54,675 nt of DNA, taken from positions 1-54,675 of the forward strand of contig JAHHIE010000044.1 in the NCBI GenBank assembly GCA_019358945.1, in the 5' to 3' direction. The position numbers and the translations under genes are program-made. Source of the DNA: Stenomitos rutilans HA7619-LM2 (GTDB lineage: Bacteria; Cyanobacteriota; Cyanobacteriia; Leptolyngbyales; Leptolyngbyaceae). Below, one piece after another: positions 19,221 to 36,385 of this stretch. Within the stretch, counting starts at the first letter, position 1. Each line of letters opens with the position of its first letter. The notes under the pieces were generated by a model. The model saw only the letters and a list, made by a program, of their open reading frames with translations. It was not told where the DNA came from and searched no databases.

Positions 19221-20764
19221 GACGCCTCCTCCAACAGGTATTCAGTAGCAGGACGAATGAGTCCTGCTTGCCGAAGGGCTTCATAGGCACTAAGCTTTTG
19301 CTTTTCTCCCGATGCCGCGATCTCAGGTAAACTTCCTTCCAAGGGAGCAGTTTTTTTACGTCTTCTAGAAACTTTTTGGACGGCTTCAGTGGCCGCTATC
19401 GGCGCTTCTGTTGCATCAACGGCGGTTGGTGGCAATTGCCTGTCGAGATTGTTTATTCGCGTAGCGGTTGATGCTTGACCTTGTTCAGCTCTACTTAATT
19501 GATTTTGGGCATCCTGCAAAAACTGATCGATGTCAATGGGATGAACATCCTCAACGCTGGTAAGAAGCCGAGTGTCTTTGTTTTTTAGGGCTTGTAGAAT
19601 AGGGTACGCCAACCGTAGGCTCTCTTTAGCCACTAGTCGAATTCCTTGCTCGGTTACAGCTTCTTCGCCATTTGTGATCGCCCGAATCTGAGCCAGCATG
19701 TAGACCTTAATGGCAAAGTCAGTAATACCTTGCGTTTCCTCATACAGCGCATCGCGCAGTTCCTGTGTCGAGCGAGATTGCTTTTTAACATACTGGTATC
19801 CCCATAAACATCTCACAATCCATTTCCAATCCTTGTCATTCTTCATCCTGTCCCAGACAAGGTCACCCTGCCCTGTACCTCTACGGGTTTGTCGAAACTC
19901 TCCATTAAGCACAGAAATTGCTTTATAGGTGCCGACAAGCACGACTGGTAACCCAATCGTGTTGATTAACTGAACAAAAAAGTTCAGCATTTTGCTGGAA
20001 CCGCCACTTTTAGCTTGGCTAAGGTGCTGGATTTCATCAATGACTAGTACACCGATCGAGTGAAGAGACGCAACCAGAGCCATACGTGGGAGCAGTTCGT
20101 CTACTGTTTTACGACCCCCCGCATAGTTGTCGTAGTAACGAGTGCCGAGCAGGTCATCTACTGCCTGGAAAAAGTTTAAGCATAAGCCCTTGATTGAACC
20201 ATCGAATGGGCAGTCTAGCTTGAGCCAGACAATTTGTGTGAAACTGAAATCGCGATCGTGATAGTGACTATGGAGGATAACCTGCGGATACAAAGACAGA
20301 ATCGCTTCTATCGCCGTGGTCTTACCAACTCCGCTAATACCAACAATAGTAAATCCTGTTGCAGTTGAACGAGGGGATTGGCGAACTGTGCCTAAAGAGT
20401 GAACCCGCAACTGCACATCTCCCCAAAAACCTGTGATTGCGGGATTCCGTGCCTGGTATCCTAGCCGAATCATCCGGGAAAACCGTTGTTCCAGATCAAA
20501 ATGAATCGGTAAAGGAGCAAAAAACTGCAAAGTATTTTGAATCAAATGTAGCCGAAGATAGGCAGGCATCTTACGATGCTCTTCGTCATACTCTGGATAG
20601 AATGCAAGACGTTCTGCAGTTTCATCCTGGGTGAAGATAGGAGGGAGAGCTTCAATCAGGGGATTACCTTGATAGTTTGGAATGACCGGGTCTAGGTAAG
20701 TTGCCTGTTCAACTCTACCCTTTCCTACCAAAAGAGACGGGATGTGTTGGCTACTCATCATCAT
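19217..20764 (-). CDS. tnsC: TnsC AAA+ ATPase regulator of transposition
   Basis: A 515-residue AAA+ ATPase. Walker A is GISGVGKTTA with Lys148, and Walker B is VLVIDEIQHL at about residues 237-246. Sensor-like VVLVGTYKAI follows. The C-terminal 120 residues are a hydrophilic tail (RRRKKTAPLEGS) that in Tn7 TnsC contacts TnsA/TnsB. TnsC bridges target selectors (TnsD or TnsE) and the transposase, and confers target immunity. It overlaps tnsB by 14 bp upstream and tnsD by 4 bp downstream. Confidence 0.95.
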   Translation of the reverse strand: MMMSSQHIPSLLVGKGRVEQATYLDPVIPNYQGNPLIEALPPIFTQDETAERLAFYPEYDEEHRKMPAYLRLHLIQNTLQFFAPLPIHFDLEQRFSRMIRLGYQARNPAITGFWGDVQLRVHSLGTVRQSPRSTATGFTIVGISGVGKTTAIEAILSLYPQVILHSHYHDRDFSFTQIVWLKLDCPFDGSIKGLCLNFFQAVDDLLGTRYYDNYAGGRKTVDELLPRMALVASLHSIGVLVIDEIQHLSQAKSGGSSKMLNFFVQLINTIGLPVVLVGTYKAISVLNGEFRQTRRGTGQGDLVWDRMKNDKDWKWIVRCLWGYQYVKKQSRSTQELRDALYEETQGITDFAIKVYMLAQIRAITNGEEAVTEQGIRLVAKESLRLAYPILQALKNKDTRLLTSVEDVHPIDIDQFLQDAQNQLSRAEQGQASTATRINNLDRQLPPTAVDATEAPIAATEAVQKVSRRRKKTAPLEGSLPEIAASGEKQKLSAYEALRQAGLIRPATEYLLEEAS

Positions 20765-23030
20765 CGCTCCACATTTTTGGACGCAGTTTATGCAGTTTTT
20801 CGATTAGTTGGGATTGCGAAACATGGGTTGAGTCCTCTTGATTATCAATTGTCTCAGCGTCTGAACCTTCATACTGAGGCTCTTCAGCATCCTTGTCTGG
20901 TTCTGGTTCTGAAGCTTCAGTTGGCACAATCAGAGGAATCACCTTACCGGAATGAGCAGGAAGTGGCTTTTCTCCCAATTTCCAGGCTTGGGCTTCGCGT
21001 TCCATGTCGCGTTCTTCTTGGCGATTCGGACGGATGCCTTTGATGCGCGATCGCTTACTCTGCCCTGTCACCTGCTCCAGCGCTGTCGAGGTTTGTTCCT
21101 GACCTTCATTCATAATCTGCTCCATTTGAGCATTCAGGGCAGCGCTAGATTGCTGCTTGCGGCTTCTAGACAACTCCTTCTGCTGCTTACGGATTTCAAA
21201 GTAGTCAAGAGTTTCGTACCAATCCCGTCCTCGGAAGGCATGTTCTGCGTCAATCAACTGGCAACACTCCAGACGTTGTCCTCCATCAAGACGCAAATAG
21301 ATATCGGTTAGGCTACGAGGATCATAAGCCACATCAATTTTCCAGCCTCCTCGTTCTCTAGCCCTTACAAACCACTGCTCTCGTAAAGCCAAGTCGCAAG
21401 AGTAAAATAAGCCCTGAAACCGAATACCGCGATAAGTAACAGAAACTCGCTCAGAAGGTAAAAGGTTCAAGCGCAGAATGTCACGGGACTTAACCCTCAG
21501 GTGTCCTGCCCGGTTACGAATACCCCAGTTCCATAGGTCTAGGGGATATGGCTCAACGTGCTCTTGGATCATGAACTCATCCATGCGATACCAATCCATC
21601 CGGTGTTCTTTGTTATGGTCTAAAATCGCAAGAATCATGAGCTTCCGGAATTGATGCAAATCCAGCACAGCATCAAGGCGGTAGTCATTCTCTCCACGTT
21701 CACGCGGTTTATAAACAGCCCCTGGCATCCAATGAATGACTTTGTCATTACTCAAGCGGAAGTTGCGCTCTACGATCCCTTTCCAATCTGCACGGTAAGG
21801 AGGGGTATTGGAAATAGTTACATCCAATGCTTTAACGAGGTTATCAGCGTTGTAGCCCTCTAGCTCTCCCCGATCAGCAATGATGACTTCCGACAAATGA
21901 TGGCAAGGCCAGTCTTCCTCCGTAATCTCAACTCCATATTCTTGACAGAACGCGACTTTGTCTACCGCCGCATTTTCTAACGCCTGCATTGCCCCTAGCC
22001 AACTTGGACCTTCCAAGGTGACACTTAGCCCAGTAATCATGCGGCTAAAAACGTCAATCAGAACGTAAATAACAGGGCGACCGATAATGCGGGTGCGATC
22101 AAGCGAACTGACTAGATAAATGTCTCCAATCGTGGCATCTATCTGGTAGATGGAGCCTGGACCGAAAGCCATCTGAGTTGAATCTCCCAGTACCTCACGA
22201 TGGCGCAGATTATAACGGCGTTTTCCTTCTCGTGAAGTCAGAGCATGGGTTGCATCCCGCTCTTTCTCATACCAATAGCGAAATTGACCAAACGTAGGTA
22301 GTTCATGAGCTGGTGGCAGACAAGGAATCAAGGCCCCATCAGAAGAAAGCGTGTAGCCTTTATGAAAATGCTTCTCCAATGTTTTCTGAAATGCATCCTG
22401 CAGCGTTCGTCCCTGAGCATTCTCATAGAATTGGCGAATGCCTCGATTAAACTTCTCTCGTATTTTGCCATCTACATTTACCCCTACGGGCATTTGAGTG
22501 ACTTTACTGATTTTGCTTGGGCGTCCTCGCTTTTTCTGTCGGCTTTGACGTTCTTTCCCAGGCGCACCGCATTTATCAAAGAGAGGTAAGAGCGCATTTC
22601 TGGTCTGTCCTCCCTGCCAGTAACGCCTGAGATACTTATAAAGAGTCATTTTTGTGCAGCCTGTCTTTTCCACCCAGGCATTCAAAAGTGTTCCACGACC
22701 GTGGGAAAAGAAGATACGCCCATCTTTGTCCCCTACCAAAGGGGCAATGACCTCCCACGCTTGGTCTCTCCGTTCTCGGTGCTTTTGGGGGATAGTATCC
22801 TCAGGCTTGAGGAGAGAAGCATAAGGATCAATCTCTAAAACATGAGCTTGCTGTGTCGCGATCGCCTCTTCCAAATCTGTACATTTCTGCCAAATAGGAA
22901 GTGCTTTAGGGTTCAACAGCTCAATTGTGGCTACATCTGTGTAGGAAGGATCAATCCAGAGTAAGCGTTCCACACGCGAAGTTTCAGTATCGTCCTGCCA
23001 TTCCAGAAGCATATTTACAAAAAGCTTCAT
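20751..23030 (-). CDS. tnsB: TnsB DDE transposase
   Basis: A 759-residue transposase with helix-turn-helix N-terminal domains, an rve/DDE catalytic core and a Mu-type C-terminal beta-barrel region. Catalytic residues are readable: Asp298 (YQIDATIGD), Asp386 (VIIADRGE) and Glu421 (WKGIVERNF), giving the DD35E spacing. TnsB binds the 20-bp sites at the transposon ends and cuts and joins the 3' ends. The acidic tail (DAETIDNQEDS...MWSDDDE) probably contacts TnsC. It overlaps the tnsA stop by 4 bp and the tnsC start by 14 bp. Confidence 0.96.
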   Translation of the reverse strand: MKLFVNMLLEWQDDTETSRVERLLWIDPSYTDVATIELLNPKALPIWQKCTDLEEAIATQQAHVLEIDPYASLLKPEDTIPQKHRERRDQAWEVIAPLVGDKDGRIFFSHGRGTLLNAWVEKTGCTKMTLYKYLRRYWQGGQTRNALLPLFDKCGAPGKERQSRQKKRGRPSKISKVTQMPVGVNVDGKIREKFNRGIRQFYENAQGRTLQDAFQKTLEKHFHKGYTLSSDGALIPCLPPAHELPTFGQFRYWYEKERDATHALTSREGKRRYNLRHREVLGDSTQMAFGPGSIYQIDATIGDIYLVSSLDRTRIIGRPVIYVLIDVFSRMITGLSVTLEGPSWLGAMQALENAAVDKVAFCQEYGVEITEEDWPCHHLSEVIIADRGELEGYNADNLVKALDVTISNTPPYRADWKGIVERNFRLSNDKVIHWMPGAVYKPRERGENDYRLDAVLDLHQFRKLMILAILDHNKEHRMDWYRMDEFMIQEHVEPYPLDLWNWGIRNRAGHLRVKSRDILRLNLLPSERVSVTYRGIRFQGLFYSCDLALREQWFVRARERGGWKIDVAYDPRSLTDIYLRLDGGQRLECCQLIDAEHAFRGRDWYETLDYFEIRKQQKELSRSRKQQSSAALNAQMEQIMNEGQEQTSTALEQVTGQSKRSRIKGIRPNRQEERDMEREAQAWKLGEKPLPAHSGKVIPLIVPTEASEPEPDKDAEEPQYEGSDAETIDNQEDSTHVSQSQLIEKLHKLRPKMWSDDDE

Positions 23031-23872
23031 CCCACACCTCCGATCGCCTCGTGCAAGCCTGTTGACAGGGTCGAAAGGAGTTTGAGTGTCTTGCTGGGTT
23101 GGATACGCTGGCTTAGATCAATATGCCATCGTCGATTAGCAATCAAATAACGCACAATTGACAGGCTAGTACCAGGAGAGAGACCTAGCTGGTCATCACA
23201 TGCGTTTGTAATCTTAGTTAGTGCTATTCTCCCTTCCAGAACCTGAGGCGTTAGCACTGTTTCGATCCGTGTGGTATCACCTTGAGTTAATGGAGCAAAA
23301 GCTTCAAGCCAGTAACACGAGCGCAACCATTTGAGGTTTTCAACCAAGGTTTTAGAAATTTCTTTCTCAGTAACAACTCCCCAATCGATGTTTCGGTGCT
23401 TCCAGTAAAGTCGCTCAATCTCCAGCTTCTCTAAAGTGCGTTGTGATTGCAGGTCAGCAGCAGGTTTGATGGCACGAGCTTGTTCTATCTCACGATCGCT
23501 CTGCTTTAAGGTGATCAAAAAATCCGTGGTCATCACTACGGATTGTTGAGTTTCAGGATCAGTAGGATGAGCATACCCGCATTGTTCTGCAATTTGCTGG
23601 GTTTCCTCTAACGGCAGCAAGGGAAACTGCTCCCGGATATCTACCACTAGTTGCGACCAATCTAGAACGAAGAGGTAGCTAGCCTCCAGTTGGCTCATCA
23701 GGTGATGATCTCTGCCGGTCTTCCAGCCTTTGGCTCGACTAGCTAGTCCTTGCGAAGGAACATCCTGAATTCGCAGCCAAGGTTGGTAGTCAGCCCTTCT
23801 CCCCTCCCCTCGGCCTCCCTTCAGTCGTTTTTCAATCTTCTGCTGGTCAGTACCGCGATTACGTTTAGCCAT
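23027..23872 (-). CDS. tnsA: TnsA restriction-enzyme-like endonuclease subunit
   Basis: A 281-residue protein. The N-terminal nuclease domain has Glu63 (HLMSQLEASYLF), Asp117 (VMTTDFLITL) and a Lys at 136 (ARAIKPAADL), matching the E-D-K arrangement of Tn7 TnsA. The C-terminal winged-helix-like half (EIERLYWKHRNIDWGVVTE) matches the TnsC-interacting domain. TnsA nicks the 5' ends of the element and so enables cut-and-paste rather than copy-in. It is a separate gene, not fused to tnsB as in some CRISPR-associated transposons. It is the first gene of the tns operon, 78 bp inside the innermost TnsB-like site. Confidence 0.92.
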   Translation of the reverse strand: MAKRNRGTDQQKIEKRLKGGRGEGRRADYQPWLRIQDVPSQGLASRAKGWKTGRDHHLMSQLEASYLFVLDWSQLVVDIREQFPLLPLEETQQIAEQCGYAHPTDPETQQSVVMTTDFLITLKQSDREIEQARAIKPAADLQSQRTLEKLEIERLYWKHRNIDWGVVTEKEISKTLVENLKWLRSCYWLEAFAPLTQGDTTRIETVLTPQVLEGRIALTKITNACDDQLGLSPGTSLSIVRYLIANRRWHIDLSQRIQPSKTLKLLSTLSTGLHEAIGGVG

Positions 23873-24065: not shown

Positions 24066-25979
24066 TTACTCAACTGTAACGCTCTTTGCCAAGTTTCTTG
24101 GCTGATCAACGTCTAAGCCTCTGCGTGCCGCAATGTGATAGGCCAGCAGTTGCAGGGGAATCACCGTGACGATCGGCGATAGCAGTTCATCCACATTAGG
24201 CACTGGAATCAACGTATCGAAGGTTTCAGCGGCTTCGTGTTCATCCATCGGCGTGACCCCAATGAGTCGTGCATCCCGCGCTTTGGCTTCCTGCGCGTTG
24301 GAGAGCACTTTTTCAAATACTGTTCCTGGCATGGCGATCGCGACGACTGGCACCTTGGCATCCAGTAGCGCGATCGGCCCGTGCTTCATTTCACCAGCCG
24401 GATAGCCTTCCGCATGGATGTAGCTGATTTCTTTGAGTTTCAGCGCACCTTCCAGGGCGATCGGGAAGTTGATGCCCCGTCCCAAAAAGATGAAATCTTG
24501 CGTTTCGGCAAAATCGTGCGCAAGTTGCTCAATGTAGCGTTCCTGACCTTCAAGCACCACTTCAATATGGGCTGGGAGTTGCTGCAAGCCCTCCAGTAAT
24601 TGTGCAAGCTGGGTAGGCGCGATCACCTGACGATGCTGTGCCAGATCGATCGCCAGACAGTAAAACGCCATCAATTGCGCGACGAACGTTTTTGTAGCGG
24701 CCACACCGATTTCAATACCCGCATGGGTATCAATAATATGGGGCACCAGATGCCCCAAGGAACTCTCTGGACGATTGGTAATGCCTAACAGCCGCGCTTG
24801 AAAATCGGCTGAGTGCCCCGATCGACGTTCCTTTTCCATTGCCAGTGCCGCCAATGTATCGGCGGTTTCACCCGATTGTGTGACGCCGATGGTGAGGGTG
24901 TGAGGGGTGAGGGGTGAGGGGGCATAGCGAAATTCGGATGCATACTGCACAGAGGTGGGAATCTCAGCAATTTGTTCTAGCAAATACTTACCAACCAGTC
25001 CGGCATGCCAACTGGTGCCACACGCTACGATCTGAATATGTTGCAAATCGGTATACAGGTCAGCAGGCAGGTTCAGGCGAATGGGCGAATGGGTGTGATC
25101 AGCGGCTGTCCAGGCAGTATCAAGGTAGGCTTCCAGGCACGATCGCACGACTCCAGGCTGCTCGTAGATTTCCTTCAGCATGAAGTGCTTAAAGCCCTGC
25201 TTCTCCACCATCACAGGGTTCCAGTTCAGCGTCCGGGGTGTTTTTCGCAGCCGTTGTCCTTCAAAGCTATAGACTTCAACGCCCAGGGGTGTCATCCGTG
25301 CCAGTTCGCCATTATCCAGAGTGAGCACTGCACGGGTATAGGGCACGATCGCAGGCGTATCCGACGCACAGTAAAACTCGCCCTGCCCAAAACCAATCAC
25401 CACTGGAGCCTGTTGCCGCGCCACAATCAATTCATCGGGGTAATCGGCAGAAATAACGGCGATCGCAAACGCTCCTTCCAACCGATTGACCACCTGCCGC
25501 ACCGCTTCTAAAAAGGGCGATGGTTGAATCGAAACTAAAGGGCTGGTTTCCAGGCTCTCAGCCTGCTGTAATACTTCGGCAATCAAGTGTGGCACGACCT
25601 CTGTATCGGTATCAGAGCGAAACTCGCAGCCACGCTCTTTCAGCTCTTCGCGCAATTCGCGGTAGTTTTCAATAATGCCGTTCTGGATGACTGCTATCCG
25701 CATCGACATATCCATATGAGGATGGGCGTTATATTCTTCTGGCTTACCGTGAGTAGCCCAGCGCGTATGGGCAATGCCAATGCGCGCTGGATTCTCTTCG
25801 CCTGCGAGTTTTGATTCGAGGTTGTGCAGTTTCCCTTTGGCACGAACACAGTGGATCTCGCCTTCCAGCACGGTAGCAATGCCCGCAGAATCATATCCGC
25901 GATATTCCAGCTTACGCAGCCCTTCGAGCAAAATACCGCTTGCTGCTTGGGTGCCAATATAGCCAACAATTCCGCACAT
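24066..25979 (-). CDS. glmS: Glutamine-fructose-6-phosphate aminotransferase (isomerising)
   Basis: A 637-residue enzyme making glucosamine-6-phosphate, the entry step to peptidoglycan and amino-sugar lipids. It starts MCGIVGYIG with the N-terminal nucleophile Cys after Met removal. The class II glutaminase domain (1-240) shows HTRWATHG and NGIIENYRELRE. Two SIS sugar-isomerase domains follow, with CGTSWHAGL, TQSGETADTL and EISYIHAEGYPAGEMKHGPIAL, and the conserved tail RNLAKSVTVE. The 3' end encodes the TnsD recognition site used by Tn7-like elements, which explains the adjacent transposon. Confidence 0.98.
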   Translation of the reverse strand: MCGIVGYIGTQAASGILLEGLRKLEYRGYDSAGIATVLEGEIHCVRAKGKLHNLESKLAGEENPARIGIAHTRWATHGKPEEYNAHPHMDMSMRIAVIQNGIIENYRELREELKERGCEFRSDTDTEVVPHLIAEVLQQAESLETSPLVSIQPSPFLEAVRQVVNRLEGAFAIAVISADYPDELIVARQQAPVVIGFGQGEFYCASDTPAIVPYTRAVLTLDNGELARMTPLGVEVYSFEGQRLRKTPRTLNWNPVMVEKQGFKHFMLKEIYEQPGVVRSCLEAYLDTAWTAADHTHSPIRLNLPADLYTDLQHIQIVACGTSWHAGLVGKYLLEQIAEIPTSVQYASEFRYAPSPLTPHTLTIGVTQSGETADTLAALAMEKERRSGHSADFQARLLGITNRPESSLGHLVPHIIDTHAGIEIGVAATKTFVAQLMAFYCLAIDLAQHRQVIAPTQLAQLLEGLQQLPAHIEVVLEGQERYIEQLAHDFAETQDFIFLGRGINFPIALEGALKLKEISYIHAEGYPAGEMKHGPIALLDAKVPVVAIAMPGTVFEKVLSNAQEAKARDARLIGVTPMDEHEAAETFDTLIPVPNVDELLSPIVTVIPLQLLAYHIAARRGLDVDQPRNLAKSVTVE

Positions 25980-26243: not shown

Positions 26244-27017
26244 TTATGCACGTTTGCAGGCGGAGACAGCAGAGGGCGCGAAACTACCAAACGTGACTGC
26301 TTTAAGCCCTAAATCTCGAATTGAATTGTTATGAAGCTGAACGTTTGTCATGCCATGATGCTCAAAATAGTTTGCATATTCAACTTGATAGACGATATCT
26401 GACAAAACGACCGTACCATTTGGTTTGAGGACTCTGACAATTTCATCGAGTGCTTTTCTGCGATCGCTTTCGGCTTCTATGTTATGAACCGCCCAACTTG
26501 AGAGCACTACATCAAAGTAGTTTGCTGGAAAAGGTAACTGACGCATATCGGCTGTTTTGACTTCAACACGCTCTGTAACCCCTTCGGTCGCCGCATTTGA
26601 TAGTGCAGCAGCAGCACTATTGCTAGCTTGATCATGCTGTTGCCATACGTCGATACCGATAGCCTTGCCAGTCGTAAGGCGGTTTGCAGCCCCGATCATC
26701 ATTAAACCTCGTCCGCAACCGACATCAAGCACAAGCTCATAACCTGACCACTGCACAAGATTCAGGAGTTTATCTCTGTCTTTTAACTTCATGACCTTAC
26801 TGCCATACAGCATGAAGCAACCCATGCCAAGCAAGTAGGTGGCTGTCATACCCAATAAAGTACTGACGGCTATTTTGGGAGTTTGCCCTAAGATTGATGA
26901 GAACAGTACGACAAGTAAGAGTACGAGTGACACTGTACCAGCGCCAAAAAAGAAGCGCACAAGACCGGGCGCATCAATGCCGTAATCCGGGTTGCTTTGA
27001 ACACTTTCAGCCGCCAT
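26244..27017 (-). CDS. Membrane-anchored class I SAM-dependent methyltransferase
   Basis: A 257-residue protein. Two transmembrane segments come first (about residues 26-46 and 50-72, TVSLVLLLVVLFSSILG and TYLLGMGCFMLYG). A Rossmann methyltransferase follows, with motif I LVLDVGCGRGLMM at about residues 95-107, IGIDVW, and motif IV/VI-type FDVVLSSWAVHNI and VLKPNGTVVLSDI. It probably methylates a small molecule or lipid at the membrane. It lies 137 bp behind the COQ4-like gene in the same direction and may form an operon with it, next to the divergent ketosynthase gene. Confidence 0.88.
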   Translation of the reverse strand: MAAESVQSNPDYGIDAPGLVRFFFGAGTVSLVLLLVVLFSSILGQTPKIAVSTLLGMTATYLLGMGCFMLYGSKVMKLKDRDKLLNLVQWSGYELVLDVGCGRGLMMIGAANRLTTGKAIGIDVWQQHDQASNSAAAALSNAATEGVTERVEVKTADMRQLPFPANYFDVVLSSWAVHNIEAESDRRKALDEIVRVLKPNGTVVLSDIVYQVEYANYFEHHGMTNVQLHNNSIRDLGLKAVTFGSFAPSAVSACKRA

Positions 27018-27154
27018 TAGCTTTGTGTCTCATTAGAAACAACTGAGATAAAAATAGTACATTTGCTCACATTGTTCAAGTGCTATCAGACGCGATTTCT
27101 ACCTGGTTTTTCAAATTCTTGCGGCGTAACATCTGTACGATACTTCACTCGGTT

Positions 27155-27664
27155 TTAATCCCAAGCACCAGCGTTGTGGATGCCATATTCCGATCGCAGC
27201 GATGCCAGATCACGATCGAGCACCGTTTCAGGATCGATCGCGGCATCGATTTTTTTGTGTACTGTAAAACCCTGCTTGACTCCCTTCAGGTACAGTTGGC
27301 AGACCTGCACAGGATTGTGATAGATGCCGCCCCAAGCTTTTCCTTGAATTGATTGCCACAACAGTTCTAAAAACACCACAAAGCTTTGGGCGTAGTAGTA
27401 CCAGGGACGTTTCCAGGTCAACGAGGTGAGCAAAAAGCCGATGAGTTGGAGTTCTTGTTCTAGCGCCGTGCTGTAGCCCGTAACGACGTGCATGATGTCG
27501 TGCCGTTGCATATCGCACCAGGGAATACACATAATGCCAACCCAGAGATCCTGGTCGCGCACAAAGTCGGGGTTTGCCTGGTAGTAGCGTTCTAGCCCCT
27601 GTCGTAATGTGGTTGCTTGTTGAGGTGGTTCAATGGGCAAACTGAGGGTATCGATCGTGTCCAT
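27155..27664 (-). CDS. COQ4-like protein
   Basis: A 169-residue protein carrying the COQ4 metal motif HDxxH-x11-E exactly (H55, D56, H59, E71) within CDMQRHDIMHVVTGYSTALE. In ubiquinone-making organisms COQ4 acts on the quinone head group. Cyanobacteria make plastoquinone, so a different substrate is likely. It is transcribed away from the ketosynthase-diiron gene (395 bp between starts) and towards the methyltransferase gene. No signal peptide. The C-terminus (DLASLRSEYGIHN) also fits the family. The homology call rests on the motif and overall layout. Confidence 0.75.
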   Translation of the reverse strand: MDTIDTLSLPIEPPQQATTLRQGLERYYQANPDFVRDQDLWVGIMCIPWCDMQRHDIMHVVTGYSTALEQELQLIGFLLTSLTWKRPWYYYAQSFVVFLELLWQSIQGKAWGGIYHNPVQVCQLYLKGVKQGFTVHKKIDAAIDPETVLDRDLASLRSEYGIHNAGAWD

Positions 27665-28059
27665 TGTCTGATTTTAATTGAGCATTATGATTAGTCTGCT
27701 CAAAATCAGTTGAGAAGTCATTGCATTTGTGACAGCGGATAAAACTGGCACAGATTTATGTCAAGATCTACGCAGAATTACTAGAGTCAATTTATCGAAT
27801 TTATGGTTAAGTTAGAGCTTTTTGAAAGCGATGAAGCTGGTTTTTAGGCTTCACCGATCAGTCTGTTTTACTTTAGCCATCTTTGGGCATCTTTTCTACA
27901 GGATACTTGATTCACTGGCTTCCAAAAAGTTCCGAAGTAATCAGACCTGTTGGCGATGCCATGTAGAAGTGAGTGTTTCAGACTTAGAGAAACTTCTGAG
28001 TGTTTAAATTGGGGCGCGATCGCCCCTGAAACTTAACCTTTTCACAAAACGAGTCACAT
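27665..28059. promoter_or_regulatory. Divergent intergenic region between COQ4-like and ketosynthase genes
   Basis: 395 bp that should hold promoters for both directions. It is AT-rich in the middle, with a near-palindromic GGGGCGCGATCGCCCC at 28012-28027 (HIP1-like) about 32 bp ahead of the ketosynthase start. No clear sigma-70 box pair, tRNA or small gene stands out. Confidence 0.4.
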
Positions 28060-30027
28060 ATGCACGGTGTATTCATTAATAGCATCGGCAAGTTTTTGCC
28101 TGGAAATCCGATCACTAATGACCAAATGGAAGACTATTTAGGAAAGGTGAATGGTCGCCCTTCCAAAGTCAGACATCGCATTCTCAAAAGTAATGGTATT
28201 CAGCAGCGCTATTATGCTCTGGATCAGCAACAGCAAACCACTTACAGCAATAGTCAGATGGCCGCGATCGCCGTTCGTGATGCGATTGCAAGCGCTAATT
28301 TGGAACCCGGTGCGATCGACCTCCTAGCGACTGCAACCAGTTGGTCAGACCTGCTCGTTCCTGGCTTTGGCAGTATGGTACACGGCGAATTGTCGGAGTT
28401 GCTGCCCATCGAGATTACGTCTAACCAGGGTGTGTGCTGTGCAGGAGTAGCAGCGCTGAAATATGCGGCATCACAAGTGAAATTGGGTGAAAAGAGAGCG
28501 GCGATCGCGGTTGCATCTGAACTGCCATCGCGTCTTTTCAAACACACTCATTTTGAAGCAGAAGCAAGCGTTAAAGCAGGAAAACCCCTTAGTTTTGATA
28601 CCGAGTTTCTGCGCTGGATGCTGTCGGATGGTGCAGGTGCTTTCCTGATTCAAAGTCATCCAAATACTTCAGGAATTAGTTTGAAAATTGAGTGGATTGA
28701 ACTCATTTCCCATGCCAATGCTTACCCTGTTTGCATGTATGCTGGAACCGAAAATGAGACCACTCAAAAAAGTTGGATGGACTATCCATCTTATCTGCAA
28801 GCGGCGGCGGCGGGCGCCATAAACCTACGCCAAAATATTCGACTCTTAGATAATGTCATCAAGCTGGGTGTGGAAGGTTGGCTGAAATTAATCGAACGGG
28901 GTCGCGTGCAGCCTGATGAAATTGATTGGCTTCTGTGTCACTACTCCTCTCACATTTTTCGAGGGCAAATCGTTGAGCTGCTGGAAAAAGCAAACTGCAT
29001 GATTCCTGAAGAGAAATGGTTTACCAATCTCTATACTCGCGGCAATACAGGCTGTGCATCCATTTATTTGATGCTGGAAGAATTGTTTCACTCTGGCAAA
29101 CTGCAACCGGGTCAAAAAATCTTCTGCTTTGTGCCCGAAAGTGGACGGTTTACGACGGCGTATATGATGTTGACGGTAGTGGGGCAGAAGGCAGAGGGGA
29201 CAGGGGAAGCAAGGGAAGCAGAGGAGGCAGGGGAAGCAGAGGAAGCAAGAGAGGCAGAAGATAACAACATTAGAAGGAATCAAGATTCAGGAGTCACTCA
29301 AGTGTTAACAACTAACAACCAACAACTGGCAACTACATCCCCCACACCCCACACCCCATACCCCATACCCGAAGAACCCGTCTCCGCCTACCTGTTGCGT
29401 CAACTGGCTCTCATCTGGTTGGAGTTTGAGCGTGAGATTCGTTCTGTGCCCATTGTGCGCAAATTGCATCGGGGTGAGTTTACGGTAGATGACTACAAAG
29501 CGATGTTGCGAAATCTGCGTCCGCAGGTAGTGGAAGGAGCACGGTGGATTGCCCGTGCTGCATCGAATATGACGGATTTTCGGTTGCGATCGACCTTCAT
29601 TGGTCATGCTCAGGATGAACACCGTGACTATCAAATGTTAGAGCGCAATTACGTTTCGGTTGGCGGAGTGTTGGAGGAGATTGTGAATGCGGAAAAGAAC
29701 ATTGGCAGTGAGGCACTGTCGGCGTTTATTTTCCATCAGGCATCGCGCGAAAATCCGGTAGACCTGTTGGGCAGCATGTTTATCATTGAAGGGCTAGGCA
29801 ATAACTTAGCCGCGAAGTGGGCAGAGCAGATCAAAGAAACACTGGGGCTAAAGGATGAACAAGTGTCGTTTTTGGGCTATCACGGCGCAAATGACGAAGC
29901 GCATCTGGGCAAGCTGAATGAATTGATTAACGCGGAATGGATGACGCAGGAAATTGCCGATCGCATTCTGAAAACGGCGCGAGTGACTGCCCGACTCTAC
30001 CGACTGCAACTTGAGGAGATTCGCTAA
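28060..30027 (+). CDS. Ketosynthase III fused to a haem-oxygenase-like diiron domain
   Basis: A 655-residue fusion. Residues 1-375 are a beta-ketoacyl-ACP synthase III-like thiolase fold with the Cys-His-Asn triad: Cys127 in GVCCAG, His294 in LLCHYSSH and Asn329 in RGNTGCAS. Residues 376-440 are a low-complexity linker rich in Glu/Ala, then Asn/Gln, then Pro/Thr, built from repeat-like DNA. Residues 441-655 are an all-helical haem-oxygenase-like domain with candidate iron ligands Glu492, Glu520/His521, Glu577 and a C-terminal H608-x3-D612-x2-H615, the HxxxDxxH signature of diiron oxygenases such as CADD. It would condense an acyl unit and then oxidise the chain. The stop codon overlaps the next start by one base. 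Confidence 0.85.
   Translation: MHGVFINSIGKFLPGNPITNDQMEDYLGKVNGRPSKVRHRILKSNGIQQRYYALDQQQQTTYSNSQMAAIAVRDAIASANLEPGAIDLLATATSWSDLLVPGFGSMVHGELSELLPIEITSNQGVCCAGVAALKYAASQVKLGEKRAAIAVASELPSRLFKHTHFEAEASVKAGKPLSFDTEFLRWMLSDGAGAFLIQSHPNTSGISLKIEWIELISHANAYPVCMYAGTENETTQKSWMDYPSYLQAAAAGAINLRQNIRLLDNVIKLGVEGWLKLIERGRVQPDEIDWLLCHYSSHIFRGQIVELLEKANCMIPEEKWFTNLYTRGNTGCASIYLMLEELFHSGKLQPGQKIFCFVPESGRFTTAYMMLTVVGQKAEGTGEAREAEEAGEAEEAREAEDNNIRRNQDSGVTQVLTTNNQQLATTSPTPHTPYPIPEEPVSAYLLRQLALIWLEFEREIRSVPIVRKLHRGEFTVDDYKAMLRNLRPQVVEGARWIARAASNMTDFRLRSTFIGHAQDEHRDYQMLERNYVSVGGVLEEIVNAEKNIGSEALSAFIFHQASRENPVDLLGSMFIIEGLGNNLAAKWAEQIKETLGLKDEQVSFLGYHGANDEAHLGKLNELINAEWMTQEIADRILKTARVTARLYRLQLEEIR
29190..29370 (+). 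repeat. Repeat-derived low-complexity linker DNA
   Basis: Within the ketosynthase-diiron gene, a purine-rich GAAGCAGAGG-type run (29195-29262), an AACAACTAACAACCAACAAC-type run (about 29306-29334) and a CCCCACACCCCA-type run (29338-29369). Each resembles short repeats seen between genes elsewhere in this window. Together they encode the interdomain linker. Confidence 0.6.
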
Positions 30028-30539
30028 TGGAACCGGAGTACTGGCTGACACCGTTTAAGCTTTGTCTGGCTATCAGTTGTACTCTGGTGCAGCCTGAGGT
30101 TGGGCGATCGCAACGCCCGGTGCTTAAACCACCTTCAGTCAATACTCCTGGAACGATTGCAGTCCCTACCGAGGTCGTTGAACTGAGCAATGCTCGCAAG
30201 GAGTATCAACGCTACCAGCAGTTATATCAGGAAGGTGCGGTTTCTCGTCAACAGCTTGATCAAGCCGAAAGTAATTACAAAGCGGCTCAGAGGCGATACA
30301 ACCAACGACAGCAGTCTCAACGTCTGCAACGCTCTGAATTAGAGCGGGCATCGCTTGAAGCCGAATTAGCACAGGCAGAAGCCTACTTTCAAGAACGACA
30401 ACGTATTTATCAGCGTGCTCAATCGTTATATCAGGAAGGCGCGATTGAGCGTCAGCAGTTGATACGGGCGGAGCAGTACTACAAAGACGCGTTGACCAGC
30501 CGCGAAACGCTACGCCAAAAGCTACGATCGCAACCTTAA
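30027..30539 (+). CDS. Coiled-coil protein with HlyD-like hairpin repeats
   Basis: A 170-residue protein whose start codon shares one base with the stop of the ketosynthase-diiron gene, so it is translationally coupled. A weak N-terminal hydrophobic segment (FKLCLAISCTLV) may be a signal or anchor. The remainder is helical with two copies of a motif, LYQEGAVSRQQLDQAE and LYQEGAIERQQLIRAE. These are typical of the coiled-coil hairpin of HlyD/RND membrane-fusion proteins, but the lipoyl and barrel domains are missing. It may be a periplasmic accessory protein. The role is unknown. Confidence 0.65.
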   Translation: MEPEYWLTPFKLCLAISCTLVQPEVGRSQRPVLKPPSVNTPGTIAVPTEVVELSNARKEYQRYQQLYQEGAVSRQQLDQAESNYKAAQRRYNQRQQSQRLQRSELERASLEAELAQAEAYFQERQRIYQRAQSLYQEGAIERQQLIRAEQYYKDALTSRETLRQKLRSQP

Positions 30540-30587
30540 TTCAGGTGCGTCTACTAACACCTACTTCTACATTTTTTGATCACTGCT

Positions 30588-31529
30588 ATGAGCCAAGCCG
30601 AACTGATCTCACAAGCGTTAGATACTGCCGTCTCTTCGCAGGCTGCACAACCATATATCCCAAGACCGCACGATCGCCAGAATCCCAATGCGTGGGATGC
30701 GCTCTATGTGGATCAGGCAATTCCGGTAGACCCGATCGCCAAAGGTTACATGATTCGGGATTTGCGAAATTGGACGCGCAGTTATTTATTAGTGCCGATC
30801 GCGTTTATTGCAAATGTGCTGCTGGCGATCATTATGACGGTAAAGCGACTGTTGCCCTTTCAGTTCAGCAACTATACGCTGATGCATCGATCGGCAGCCT
30901 GGTTTCTCAATACCTTCGTGTCGCCGGAAGCCTGCTATCTCATCGTGCGGCATATCTGCCTCGGTTCCAATATCGTCAATTTCTTGATTGACAATGGCCC
31001 TGATACCAACATTGAAAAATCCCAATTGTATCCCTGCACTATTGATGATTTGGCAAACAATGCGTTTTTAGAACACGATCTGATTCTCTACAACTTCGTG
31101 CTGGATTACAGCAAGGCGCAGCGCGAAAACCCTCATTGGATACAGCAGGTACAGGCACGCGGATTGAATTTTGACAGCATCAAACCCGTCCAGGTAAATG
31201 TGTATTTCACAAAGCGTCGCTGGTTACGCATATTGGATCTGGAATCAGCGATCGAACTGTTCAAGGTCTTCTATTCGCTCTGTCTCACCAGCGATGAATT
31301 TGAACGGGCTGTGCTGTCTCTGGAATTTGACGAAAACTTTGGTTGCTACATCAGTGCCCTCACCGGGGACTACAACTGGAACCACGTCATCACCAACCGT
31401 CATCCGCTAGCTCCCGAAAGCCCCTTTGCAGCAGCACGCAATCTTTTACTGCACGGCATCATTTCAGAATATTTGCACCGTTACTTGGAGTTAAGAAAGG
31501 AGATGGCGCAAACGGCTAGCGATCGCTAA
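30588..31529 (+). CDS. Uncharacterised membrane-associated protein of the ketosynthase locus
   Basis: A 313-residue protein from ATG 30588 (an in-frame TTG lies 12 bp upstream). One clear membrane segment is SYLLVPIAFIANVLLAIIM at about residues 65-83. The rest is helical with conserved-looking blocks such as SPEACYLIVRHICLGSNIVN and FLEHDLILYNFVLDY, whose His, Glu and Asp residues could bind metal. I do not recognise the family with certainty. It follows the coiled-coil gene by 48 bp and is probably in the same transcript. It overlaps the convergent LapA-like gene by 14 bp. Confidence 0.7.
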   Translation: MSQAELISQALDTAVSSQAAQPYIPRPHDRQNPNAWDALYVDQAIPVDPIAKGYMIRDLRNWTRSYLLVPIAFIANVLLAIIMTVKRLLPFQFSNYTLMHRSAAWFLNTFVSPEACYLIVRHICLGSNIVNFLIDNGPDTNIEKSQLYPCTIDDLANNAFLEHDLILYNFVLDYSKAQRENPHWIQQVQARGLNFDSIKPVQVNVYFTKRRWLRILDLESAIELFKVFYSLCLTSDEFERAVLSLEFDENFGCYISALTGDYNWNHVITNRHPLAPESPFAAARNLLLHGIISEYLHRYLELRKEMAQTASDR

Positions 31530-32599: not shown

Positions 32600-35500
32600 A
32601 TGACAGTGGTAAGCAATCCCGTTTCAACCCCAGCCGATCGGCTTTCAGAAGCCATTACGCAACTCCGTAGCCTTACCCAACGCAGCATTCAAGCCGATTG
32701 GCGCTACTGCGATGACGATCTCCCGATCGCCCAGGCAACCCAACCTGGCACCTGGCAGAATTGGTCGATCGCGCCCCTCAACGAGAAAGACCACATCGTT
32801 TGGGCGAAGGGCAAACACGTCCGCTGGCTCGGTCAAGTTATTACGGTGCCCCATTATTTACAGCAGTTTTCAGATGAATACGCCACGCTTGCAGATTTTC
32901 TCAGCCCCCTAAATCCCCCAATTCTGGGGGACTTTGACTCTGATTCCCCCCAGAATTGGGGGGCTAGGGGGGCAAAAGCGGCTATGACAGGCTACCCACT
33001 TGCAGGGCTGACCCTCCGCCTCGCTGTCACCTGGTGGGCAAACAAAGCCGCACTCTTCGTCAACGGTGAACTCGTTCAGGAAGGCGACATCTTCGATTGC
33101 GTCACTCGCATCCTGCTCAGCGAAGCCGTCACACCAGGAGATACCTTCGCGATCGCCATTCGCCTCGTCAGCCCCGGACACGACGACGGTGCCCTCGTGC
33201 GATCGGTCTGCCATTACGAGTCCTCCACCAACATTCCTGAACCCAGCTTCATCGCCGACGAACTCAACATTCTCCGCCTCTACCTCCAAACCTTCGCCCC
33301 CGAAAAACTCAATCTCCTAAACGAAGCCATCACCACGATCGACTGGTCATCTCTCCTCCCCCACACCCCACACCCCACACCCTACACCCCTTCTCTCTTC
33401 GATCAATCCCTGGCAAACTTACGCGATCGCCTCCTCCCCCTCTCCCCCCTCCTCAAACAGCGCCGCATTCGTCTCCTCGGACACGCCCACCTCGACATGG
33501 CATGGCTCTGGACAGTCGCCGAAACCTGGAACGCTGCCGAACGCACCTTCGAGTCTGCCCTGAACCTGCAAAACGACTTTCCCGAACTCACCTTCTGCCA
33601 TTCCACCCCCGCTCTGTACGAATGGATCGAGCAGAATCGCCCTGCAATGTTCGAGCAGATACGACAGGCGATCGCAGCCGGATGGTGGGAACCCGTCGGC
33701 GGACTGTGGGTCGAGCCAGAACTCAATATCATCAGCGGTGAATCAATGGTGCGGCAGGTGCTCTACGGTCAGCGCTACTTTCAGGAGAAGTTTGGCAGCA
33801 TCAACCGTATGGCGTGGCTACCCGATAGCTTTGGCTTCACCTGGCAGCTCCCGCAAATCCTCAAGCAGGGCGGCATCGATTACTTCGTCACGCAAAAACT
33901 ACGCTGGAACGACACCACAAAATTCCCCTACGAAGTCTTCCAGTGGCAGGCACCCGATCGCACCGAAATCTTCAGCCTCATGTCCGCCCCGATCGGTGAA
34001 GGCATCGATCCCATCAAAATGGCAACCTACGCCTGCGACTGGGAAACCAAAACAGGCATTCCCGACGTTCTGTGGCTCCCCGGAGTCGGCGATCATGGCG
34101 GCGGACCCACCCGCGATATGCTCGAAATCGCCCGTCGCTGGCAGCGATCGCCCTTCTTCCCCCAGCTAGAATTCTCCACGGCTCTCGACTATCTGCAAGA
34201 CCTCGAAGCACATTACACGCCTAGTGTAACCACAGACTTGAGGGGTAAAGCGCAACGCGCGATCGCTCAAGCTCAAACAGTCATAAACGAGCCTCTAATA
34301 CTCACTAACGAGTCTTTGATACTCTCGAACGAGCCTTTGACACTCTCAAACGAATCTTTGAACCTCAACCACGAGGCTCCAACACTCTCCAACGAGGCTC
34401 CAACACTCTCGAATGAGTCTTTACTACTCTCGAATGAGTCTCCAAACCTCATTAACGAGTCTTTATCACTCAATCAGGAGGCTTCAACACTCTCGAATGA
34501 GTCTTTAACACTCTTGAATGACTCTCAAATACTCAACGACGAGTCTCAAACACTGACCAACGAAGCTCAGAACTCCAACGCCCAACCTCCCCACTCCCCA
34601 CTCCCTACACCCCACTCCCTCCCCCTCTGGCACTCCGACCTCTACCTCGAATTCCATCGTGGTTGCTACACTACCCATGCTGATCAAAAGTGGTGGAATC
34701 GACGGTGCGAACAATGGCTTTACTGGGCAGAACTCTATGCATCGCTGGCGACGATCGCCACTCATGCTCCCTATCCCAAAGCAGAGATAGAGACGGCATG
34801 GGAAAAAACTCTCTTCAATCAATTCCATGACATTCTCCCTGGTTCCTCAATTCAAGCGGTATTTGAAGATGCGAATAAAGCATGGGCTGACGTTGCTAAA
34901 TTAACAGACATCAGAGAAGAGGCACTGAAAGCGATCGCATCCCAAATTTCTCTGCCATCACCACCACACCCCAGCGCTAGAGCAATTGTTGTTTTTAACC
35001 CTTGTAATTGGGAACGTTCCGCGATCGTTCACACCTCACTTTCAGAACGATTCACAACAGATGAGGAAATGCTGGCAGCGTATGAAAAGTATGGACAGGA
35101 TAACGTTTATCCCTGGCAGATTTGTGATTTAGACGGTCAGAAAGTCGAAACTCCCTACTGTTCTTTTCACAAAAATCCTGATTCCTACGGTTGGGGGGTA
35201 AACTTTCTGGCTGAAGACATTCCCGCGCTTGGCTACCGCTGCTTCTGGATGTACCCTTGCTTCGATCGACGTACTGGCAGACCGCTTGACAAACGACGGA
35301 CTCTAGAAAATAAATTTCTACGGATTGTCATTGACACAAGCACAGGTGATTTAGCCAGTGTTTTTGACAAAATCAATGAGCGCGAAGTTCTTAATGGGGC
35401 AGGAAATCAGTTACAAGCCTTTTGGGATGAAGGGCAATATTGGGATGCCTGGAACATTGACCCAGATTACGAGAAGCATCCTTTACCACCTGCCGAACTC

Positions 35501-36385
35501 TTACACATTAGTCCTTCTGATGAACTGCGCGTAGGCGGAACAGCACTTCACAGTTCATTAGTGGCAAGCATCACCGTTGAGCGCAAAATTGGTCGATCTG
35601 TTTTTATGCAAACCTATATTCTCGAACGAGAATCTCCCGTTCTGAGAATCAACGCATCTGTCGAGTGGCACGAGCGACATACCTTAGTCAAAGTTGCCTT
35701 TCCGTTAAATCTGGAAGCAAACCACGCGACTTACGAAATTCCTTGCGGAGTGATTCAGCGAACCACGAAACCGGAGACTGAGGCTGAAAAAGCCCAATGG
35801 GAAGTCCCTGCCATGCACTGGGCAGACCTCAGCGACGGCAACTATGGCGTGAGCCTGCTCAACGACTGCAAATACGGCTACGACGCAAAACCCAACCAGC
35901 TACGACTTACCCTACTGCGAGGCTCCGAATTCCCCGATCCAGATGCAGACAAAGGGCAGCACTCGTTCACCTATGCCCTCTATCCCCATGCAGGCGACTG
36001 GAAAGCCGCTCAAACCGTTAAGCATGGCTACGAGCTAAATATGCCGCTCATGGCACAGGTTATCCCTACGAACGGAGACTCTAGCGCTAAAACCTTGCCA
36101 CCCACAGCCTCCCTTCTAAACCTGGGAGCCGACAACCTCGTACTGATGGCATTCAAGCAGTCAGAAGACTCGCCCGATGAGTGGATTCTGCGCTGCTACG
36201 AGTCTCATGGCGAAGAGGCACAGCTAAACCTTCAGAGCGATCTGGGTTTGAAGTTAGGAGAGCGGGTTGATGTGCTGGAGCGATCGATGGACTCCGATCT
36301 GTCCCAAATACCAGATACAAGGATACAGCCCTGGGCGATCGCCAACTTCAAAGTCACAACTCATTCAGCCGATGCTGACTGCTAA
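32600..36385 (+). CDS. Alpha-mannosidase, glycoside hydrolase family 38
   Basis: A 1261-residue GH38 enzyme that hydrolyses alpha-mannosides. The catalytic barrel has H295-A-H297-L-D299 (zinc site, in LLGHAHLDMAWLW) and the nucleophile Asp409 in WLPDSFGF. The metal-site continuation FHRGCYTT and the beta-domains of the C-terminal half are present. The core is longer than usual because of three insertions: a palindromic repeat read as SPLNPPILGDF (32903-32977), a Pro/Thr/His stretch (33358-33395), and about 100 residues of heptapeptide repeats (34286-34579) followed by another Pro-rich stretch. The repeat array lies in a loop between the barrel and the LYLEFHRG block, so the enzyme may still fold. 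Soluble; no signal peptide is seen. Confidence 0.92.
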   Translation: MTVVSNPVSTPADRLSEAITQLRSLTQRSIQADWRYCDDDLPIAQATQPGTWQNWSIAPLNEKDHIVWAKGKHVRWLGQVITVPHYLQQFSDEYATLADFLSPLNPPILGDFDSDSPQNWGARGAKAAMTGYPLAGLTLRLAVTWWANKAALFVNGELVQEGDIFDCVTRILLSEAVTPGDTFAIAIRLVSPGHDDGALVRSVCHYESSTNIPEPSFIADELNILRLYLQTFAPEKLNLLNEAITTIDWSSLLPHTPHPTPYTPSLFDQSLANLRDRLLPLSPLLKQRRIRLLGHAHLDMAWLWTVAETWNAAERTFESALNLQNDFPELTFCHSTPALYEWIEQNRPAMFEQIRQAIAAGWWEPVGGLWVEPELNIISGESMVRQVLYGQRYFQEKFGSINRMAWLPDSFGFTWQLPQILKQGGIDYFVTQKLRWNDTTKFPYEVFQWQAPDRTEIFSLMSAPIGEGIDPIKMATYACDWETKTGIPDVLWLPGVGDHGGGPTRDMLEIARRWQRSPFFPQLEFSTALDYLQDLEAHYTPSVTTDLRGKAQRAIAQAQTVINEPLILTNESLILSNEPLTLSNESLNLNHEAPTLSNEAPTLSNESLLLSNESPNLINESLSLNQEASTLSNESLTLLNDSQILNDESQTLTNEAQNSNAQPPHSPLPTPHSLPLWHSDLYLEFHRGCYTTHADQKWWNRRCEQWLYWAELYASLATIATHAPYPKAEIETAWEKTLFNQFHDILPGSSIQAVFEDANKAWADVAKLTDIREEALKAIASQISLPSPPHPSARAIVVFNPCNWERSAIVHTSLSERFTTDEEMLAAYEKYGQDNVYPWQICDLDGQKVETPYCSFHKNPDSYGWGVNFLAEDIPALGYRCFWMYPCFDRRTGRPLDKRRTLENKFLRIVIDTSTGDLASVFDKINEREVLNGAGNQLQAFWDEGQYWDAWNIDPDYEKHPLPPAELLHISPSDELRVGGTALHSSLVASITVERKIGRSVFMQTYILERESPVLRINASVEWHERHTLVKVAFPLNLEANHATYEIPCGVIQRTTKPETEAEKAQWEVPAMHWADLSDGNYGVSLLNDCKYGYDAKPNQLRLTLLRGSEFPDPDADKGQHSFTYALYPHAGDWKAAQTVKHGYELNMPLMAQVIPTNGDSSAKTLPPTASLLNLGADNLVLMAFKQSEDSPDEWILRCYESHGEEAQLNLQSDLGLKLGERVDVLERSMDSDLSQIPDTRIQPWAIANFKVTTHSADADC
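32903..32977. repeat. Palindromic repeat read in frame in the mannosidase
   Basis: Near-identical to the element at 9533-9605: AGCCCCCTAAATCCCCCAAT at the start and GGGGGGCTAGGGGGGC at the end. It encodes SPLNPPILGDF...NWGARGAK in the N-terminal domain. Confidence 0.88.
34286..34579. repeat. 21-bp tandem repeat array, 14 units, coding
   Basis: Fourteen contiguous 21-bp units of the type AACGAGTCTTTGACACTCTC plus one base. Each encodes a heptapeptide close to NESLTLS, at residues 563-660 of the mannosidase. Units differ at several positions but none breaks the frame. The array is flanked downstream by C/T-rich repeats (34580-34625). Confidence 0.9.

Follow-up and report, generated by a model that had tools for sequence, protein, structure and literature searches.

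The stretch of DNA considered here, called the window throughout, is a 54,675-nucleotide contig (JAHHIE010000044.1) of Stenomitos rutilans HA7619-LM2, which has a genome of 7.28 Mb; the closest named relatives of this genome are cyanobacteria. Between positions 26244 and 31529 a gene for a single 655-residue protein joins a ketosynthase (KS) to a haem-oxygenase-like dimetal oxidase (HDO) domain, and around it lie genes for a DUF6999 protein, a COQ4-like protein, a methyltransferase and a coiled-coil protein (Table 1). All the open reading frames (ORFs) that an earlier note, made from the sequence alone, had named in this region are present at the positions it gave them. The fusion of a KS and an HDO in one chain is real: PF08541 (KASIII-type half) and PF14518 (Haem_oxygenas_2 half) both match it above their cut-offs, in agreement with the single condensing and oxidising chain that the note had described.

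Table 1. Features of the fusion locus and of the neighbouring Tn7-like genes
Feature	Position	Strand	Remarks
Fusion gene	28060-30027	+	655 aa; KS half, linker and HDO half
KS domain, residues 1-376	28060-29187	+	StlD/DarB family; triad C126, H294, N329
Interdomain linker, about residues 377-436	29188-29367	+	Low complexity, hypervariable among relatives
HDO domain, residues 437-655	29368-30027	+	PF14518; 8 candidate ligands
DUF6999 protein	30588-31529	+	PF22523; 313 aa from ATG 30588, 317 aa if TTG 30576
COQ4-like protein, 169 aa	27155-27664	-	HDxxHx11E; divergent from fusion
Coiled-coil protein	30027-30539	+	HlyD-like helix; family matches all below cut-off
Methyltransf_11 protein	26244-27017	-	PF08241, 3.3e-20; N-terminal part hydrophobic
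TnsA	23027-23872		Tn7-like
Mu-transpos_C protein	20751-23030		Tn7-like; TnsB-like by position
TniB/AAA protein	19217-20764		Tn7-like
TnsD/TniQ	17250-19220		Tn7-like

Distribution and architecture of the fusion

Relatives of the fusion were collected with KS patterns in a scan that took a single genome for each species; at least 589 related stretches, possibly including unfused KSs, were confirmed, and the best 80 were kept and are referred to below as the named loci. Forty of these are cyanobacterial and forty are labelled Bacteroidota, Acidobacteriota, Myxococcota, Planctomycetota or Verrucomicrobiota, apart from one labelled Rickettsiales, which nests among the Planctomycetota in the tree and is perhaps misbinned. 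In 79 of the 80 the fusion is uninterrupted in one reading frame; these include three (L095, L099 and L102) that an ORF filter had missed and a second pass recovered. At the remaining locus (L112) it is broken into three frames, and this locus does not enter the alignments. The alignment used below consists of the window's fusion and 50 of the 79 unbroken ones, and covers six phyla. In a set of 292 cyanobacterial genomes, the window's own included, the fusion is present in eight, and two further genomes (G127, G143) carry an unfused KS without DUF6999. A survey of 148 Bacteroidota genomes found an StlD/DarB KS in nine, eight of them unfused and without DUF6999, and the ninth genome is the one on which the survey was centred; this survey drew few fusions and therefore says little on their frequency.

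Some fusion genes are broken, either by a split of about 0.9 kb in the KS (L048) or by frame breaks (L044, L049 and L112), and at L137 the gene has two stops and the DUF6999 gene is gone; assembly errors are possible in each case. The Flagellimonas algicola genome holds two pairs of fusion and DUF6999 genes (L124, L125).

The AlphaFold2 model of the fusion has a mean predicted local distance difference test score (pLDDT) of 87.8, and linker residues 404-436 fall under 50. In an alignment of relatives the linker is highly variable in length and sequence even inside the genus. It is coded in the window as an EAEEAGEAEE-type sequence, with matches at many places in this genome and in sister genomes, and gives the impression that a mobile or expanding repeat has entered the linker in frame.

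The ketosynthase half

The earlier note had called this half KASIII-like, which is correct for the type of fold and too generic for the family: the window protein matches the StlD/DarB model NF005293 at 451.9 bits (cut-off 450) and reaches only 71.9 bits with the ordinary FabH model, which has a cut-off of 292.1. The closest solved relative by sequence is StlD (PDB 5gk0/5gk2, E 4.3e-92), with 41-43% identity to the window KS, and superposition of the fusion model on StlD gives Z 53.7 (368 residues, 1.6 Å), the next entry shown being AbyA1 at Z 39.2. The triad C126/H294/N329 is invariant in all 51 aligned fusions and in all six unfused DarB proteins compared, and H294 is aligned, by a numbering that we worked out, to the His changed in the StlD H302A entry. 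His294 and Asn329 were thus named rightly in the earlier note, and its Cys127 should be read as C126, position 127 being Cys in just 17 of the 51. In a tree of 44 fusion KSs and the six unfused DarB proteins, the two groups lie on opposite sides of one branch with support of 100/100, a split compatible with a single fusion event. The product had been regarded as not predictable, which now seems too pessimistic: membership of the StlD/DarB family makes a ring-type skeleton, a dialkylcyclohexanedione or resorcinol, the probable outcome.

The oxidase half

PF14518 matches the fusion at 35.0 bits (gathering cut-off 28.9), and a profile match of the HDO domain to 3dde has an E-value of 2.5e-08; the fold of this half is judged by sequence alone, as KS matches filled the listing of a structure search with the whole fusion. 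The HDO ligand motif is given as E-H-E-H-(D/E)-H (PMC11363339). Eight residues of metal-ligand type, H516, E520, H521, D523, E577, H608, D612 and H615, are invariant in 51/51 fusions at identities down to 50%, E577 falling on helix 2 and H608-x3-D612-x2-H615 on helix 3 of that motif. The HxxxDxxH iron motif of the earlier note corresponds to these last three residues, and the loss of ligands from homologues, which the note had named as a ground for giving up its idea, is not what the alignment contains, every tested catalytic residue being invariant. In a MAFFT alignment the columns of E577, H608, D612 and H615 are shared by all seven HDO rows that could be used, one of which (L147) is under the Pfam cut-off; two comparison rows (L143, L149) are absent from it, and two (L150, L152) were dropped for a nonsense alignment, probably in the wrong frame. 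Kinship of the HDO domain to DarA was considered and rejected at a profile-comparison probability of 1.6%.

DUF6999 is the conserved partner of the fusion

The protein encoded downstream of the fusion matches PF22523 (DUF6999) at 355.9 bits (cut-off 27; 1.5e-106), and its translation more probably begins at the in-frame ATG at 30588. In 74 of the 80 named loci the fusion is followed on the same strand by a DUF6999 gene (71 in the first pass, to which L069, L102 and L109 were added, the genes of L069 and L109 being cut by the contig end), and 63 of the 71 gaps measured are at most 100 nt, with a median of 8. At five of the six loci without it the contig ends soon after the fusion, within 161 nt at L065 and L083 and within 460-580 nt at L095, L099 and L100; those of L095 and L100 end inside a histidine-box ORF of the kind that sits between the fusion and DUF6999 in L118 and L128. 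Among the first 20 loci collected from relatives, DUF6999 is present at 18, the exceptions being L045 and L050, the latter cut by a contig end. Among the 292 cyanobacterial genomes it scores above cut-off in seven, all of which bear the fusion, and one more match is below cut-off; in the eighth fusion genome (G149), which lacks DUF6999, the fusion gene is interrupted by two stops and its HDO part is truncated. The association has a hypergeometric p of 2.4e-13 (uncorrected for kinship, as are the p values below). A lack of conserved neighbours, the other ground on which the earlier note would have been given up, fails against DUF6999. The note had also coupled two unknown genes to the fusion, and of these the 317-aa gene is the DUF6999 gene and is retained, whereas the coiled-coil gene is not (see below).

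In an alignment of the window's DUF6999 protein with 44 of those collected elsewhere, H100, R121, H122, N136, H163, D164 and N169, as well as D217, R240, D248, E249, H289 and E294, are invariant in 45/45; a metal or polar active site would be plausible. The model is all-helical (pLDDT 90.4); Foldseek returned no PDB match at E <=0.001 (best 1.1), and the best Z by VIA among 686 chains was 3.3, which does not prove a new fold. Remote kinship to Coq4, HDO or DarA was rejected, the profile-comparison probabilities being at most 0.2%. One helix of the window protein is strongly hydrophobic, but two members from other phyla that were checked hardly have such a helix, which leaves attachment to the membrane uncertain. 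Our literature search returned no paper on DUF6999.

Fusion loci lack DarA

In dialkylresorcinol (DAR) clusters darA and darB are adjacent and are described as "DAR-aromatase" and "DAR-cyclase", respectively (PMC3949708). All six unfused DarB loci examined, from 10 genomes found (two of two cyanobacteria and four of eight Bacteroidota), have, adjoining the KS gene, a gene whose product is about 300 aa long, and three of the four such proteins tested have a weak, sub-cut-off match to Flavodoxin_4 (best E 0.0082). We call this protein DarA, an assignment by analogy drawn from its position beside the KS and the adjacency described in PMC3949708. A DarA profile that recovers all six found no ORF at the window, the 20 relatives' loci, the 80 named loci and five further fusion loci, and none in the window's own genome. 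At the level of whole genomes DarA is present in 6/6 with an unfused DarB and in 1/35 with a fusion (Fisher p 1.6e-6); the 35 leave out G004, G015, G032 and most named-locus genomes and include three with broken fusion genes (G019, G041 and G149). The fusion and DarA are thus nearly mutually exclusive in the genomes searched.

Other genes around the fusion

The COQ4-like protein scores 15.7 bits with Pfam Coq4 (PF05019), below the cut-off of 22.9, and covers 23 profile positions; nine of 12 members of its family match Coq4 at E 0.1 or better, the best at 0.0024, and no PDB sequence matches the protein at E <=1. It contains HDxxHx11E, which we take to be the Coq4-type motif. Its gene occurs in 14 of the 20 relatives' loci and eight of the 40 named cyanobacterial loci (some of the other 32 being cut by contig ends), in none of the 40 loci from other phyla, and in three of the 292 cyanobacterial genomes, all with an intact fusion (hypergeometric p 8.5e-6); it is an accessory of some cyanobacteria. 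The methyltransferase gene is present in 2/20 relatives' loci, both of the same genus, and in 2/80 named loci. The coiled-coil gene, the start of which overlaps the fusion stop codon by one base, is found in one relative's locus of the 20 (40.6% identity) and in none of the 80. Of the five genes that the earlier note had grouped, therefore, the fusion and DUF6999 stay together widely, the COQ4-like gene is tied to them in some cyanobacteria only, and the methyltransferase and coiled-coil genes drop out as pathway members.

Genes of another kind recur in the other phyla. A fatty-acid-hydroxylase-type gene lies immediately upstream of the fusion in 20 of the 40 non-cyanobacterial loci, one of them cut by a contig end (PF04116 was checked in two of the 20), a fatty-acid desaturase (PF00487) is part of the operon in L111 and L128, and histidine-box ORFs, recognised by pattern only, are part of it in L095, L100 and L118. 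From -3.5 to +4.5 kb, the 40 cyanobacterial loci have no hydroxylase- or desaturase-type neighbour, the sole pattern match (L077) being the DUF6999 protein of that locus.

A proposed pathway and its alternatives

DarB-type KSs reportedly make cyclohexanediones, as the founding DarB paper is said to describe (Fuchs 2013, Angew. Chem.). In the reading that we favour, though we rate it slightly below an even chance, the KS of the fusion would make a 2,5-dialkylcyclohexane-1,3-dione, and the tethered HDO, together with DUF6999, would replace DarA by an O2-dependent oxidation. Judging from its family, the KS would load an acyl chain on C126 and join two acyl thioesters, giving the 2,5-dialkylcyclohexane-1,3-dione or its carboxylate; cyclohexanediones are described as intermediates of the pathway by which the Dar enzymes make DARs (PMC4414361). 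The HDO would then oxidise the ring with O2 and a two-metal centre, doing the job of the separate DarA. The main ground for casting the HDO as the ring oxidant, a role that we assign to it just as tentatively, is that the systems without DarA carry an HDO on their KS. A version of this step with economical chemistry, modelled on the oxidative decarboxylation of a fatty acid by UndA (PMC11363339), would decarboxylate a ring carboxylate oxidatively and lead directly to the dialkylresorcinol, which seems unlikely. DUF6999, perhaps a membrane-associated helical metalloprotein, might act on the ring or in releasing it; this is the weakest of the steps. Tailoring would differ by lineage, with fatty-acid hydroxylases and desaturases in other phyla and the COQ4-like protein in some cyanobacteria. 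A broader proposal, of an O2-dependent ring-lipid pathway in at least six phyla with a helix-1 swap in its HDO, a new product or a new reaction such as oxidative decarboxylation to the arene, and a second, new metalloenzyme family in DUF6999, is possible and somewhat more doubtful.

Several observations weigh against this interpretation. The DUF6999 gene is missing from L045 and, across about 8 kb downstream of the fusion, from L075, and the 80 named loci were ranked by their match to the whole fusion, so that they are biased to intact fusions and uninformative on the frequency of unfused KSs. One genome, that of Aureibaculum flavum (G336), carries both the fusion and DarA, and where DarA is absent the product might remain a cyclohexanedione, or its oxidation might fall to another enzyme. 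The window KS is above the NF005293 cut-off by only 1.9 bits, the two other-phylum fusions scanned fall just below it (431.5 and 429.5), and the model for DarB proper (NF053539, cut-off 550) gives the window KS 400.1; a cyanobacterial unfused DarB, at 505.1, is likewise under that cut-off and one from Bacteroidota scores 694.1. When a FabH outgroup is added, support for the fusion clade drops to 65/16; the outgroup branches are very long, at 8-10 changes per column, and this tree is not trusted for rooting. Helix 1 of the HDO domain is non-canonical, with D523 at a column that holds His in all seven usable HDO rows and in 3dde, which leaves its metal binding and nuclearity uncertain. The column of H516 holds Glu in four of the seven rows and that of E520 in two, the alignment being gapped here. 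On a single predicted helix (507-533) H516, E520 and D523 follow one another at i, i+4 and i+7, so the helix-1 acid and His may have swapped places, with the count of His and carboxylate ligands kept; the invariant H516, E520 and H521 of the same helix could also supply the Glu and His pair.

The same non-canonical pattern would fit an HDO-type domain that is catalytically dead and only structural or substrate-holding, a reading made very improbable by the invariance of the eight ligand-type residues. An unlikely but more serious alternative is that the HDO goes beyond aromatisation and hydroxylates or cleaves the ring, the outcome being a hydroxylated resorcinol, quinol or quinone that would serve as a redox or antioxidant lipid, with a Coq4-type ring oxidation by the COQ4-like protein where there is one; known HDOs are reported to include C-C cleavers and N-oxygenases (PMC11363339, PMC13108848), and in cyanobacteria the COQ4-like gene, with its HDxxHx11E, keeps company with the fusion. 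That gene is not found at most cyanobacterial and at all other loci, however, and its Coq4 score stays below cut-off.

The HDO might instead act before condensation, by an UndA-like desaturation or trimming that supplies, in place of ordinary enoyl thioesters, the unsaturated partner required by a DarB-type KS. The substrate of UndA is a fatty acid, and the recurrence of fatty-acid hydroxylases and desaturases in the operons suggests that acyl-chain oxidation is part of the theme, but this would leave the near absence of DarA unexplained, and we hold it to be still less probable than oxygenation of the ring. Least probable of all, and by a wide margin short of likely, is the pathway of five genes with methylation and COQ4-like steps that the earlier note had drawn: the five lie side by side in the window, and the COQ4-like gene does show an association with the fusion, yet the distribution of the methyltransferase and coiled-coil genes largely refutes it for both. 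Oxidation by the HDO in the place of DarA stays the reading that we prefer.

Relation to known systems

The fusion shares with the DarA-DarB dialkylresorcinol pathway (flexirubin, arcuflavin and the bartoloside-like clusters of cyanobacteria) its KS family, its catalytic triad and a second enzyme after the KS; it differs in the lack of DarA, the joining of the KS to an HDO, the DUF6999 partner and a score under the cut-off of the NCBIfam DarB model. Expression of C. pinensis darB and darA is reported to have given a DAR (PMC3992019), and cyanobacterial clusters are described as holding homologues of both proteins (PMC8406957). The stilbene ketosynthase StlD (PDB 5gk0, 5gk1, 5gk2), for all its similarity, is a chain of 402 residues that consists of the KS domain alone. 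With the HDOs UndA, CADD, SznF, BesC, AetD, PolF and FlcD the fusion has in common PF14518, the helix-2 Glu and the helix-3 His-x3-Asp-x2-His, and it is set apart by helix 1 (H516-x3-E520-x2-D523, with Asp at the His of the HDOs compared) and by its union with a KS. The likeness of the COQ4-like neighbour to Coq4 lies in HDxxHx11E, in contrast to its sub-cut-off match, its length of 169 aa and its restriction, in the 292 cyanobacterial genomes, to those with the fusion.

Both halves thus belong to known families, whereas their covalent pairing, with DUF6999 and without DarA, appears to be new. The words "ketosynthase", "polyketide" and "fused" are absent from the main text of a 2026 review of HDOs (PMC13108848), and no description of a KS-HDO fusion appeared in the top-ranked open-access literature listings, although subscription papers could hold one. 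By the account in PMC13108848, functional validation exists for only about a dozen HDOs; here the presumed supplier of the substrate is part of the same chain as the HDO, which makes the substrate class and an assay predictable. If the proposal is right, DarA would let two ways of oxidising a possibly identical ring be compared directly, and DUF6999 would gain its first role. The pairing with DUF6999 and the presence of the fusion in many bacteria point to an undescribed ring-lipid route. A control genome, that of Caulobacter vibrioides, matches DUF6999, the StlD/DarB KS and PF14518, each family having been matched separately, and a laboratory model may therefore exist.

Further features of the window

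The Tn7-like transposition genes (17250-23872) lie next to a gene at 24066-25979 that we take to be glmS, and in a sister genome (L033) a relative of TnsA with 56% identity is also beside glmS. Beyond the transposition genes are a 989-aa AMP-ligase/carrier/thioesterase protein (393-3362) and a protein of 2182 aa that combines PhyH, thioesterase and several glycosyltransferase domains (6308-12856). On the other side of the fusion locus, a 1261-aa protein (32600-36385), presumably alpha-mannosidase-like, contains an in-frame run of NESLTLSNE-type repeats, an apparent expansion like that of the linker.

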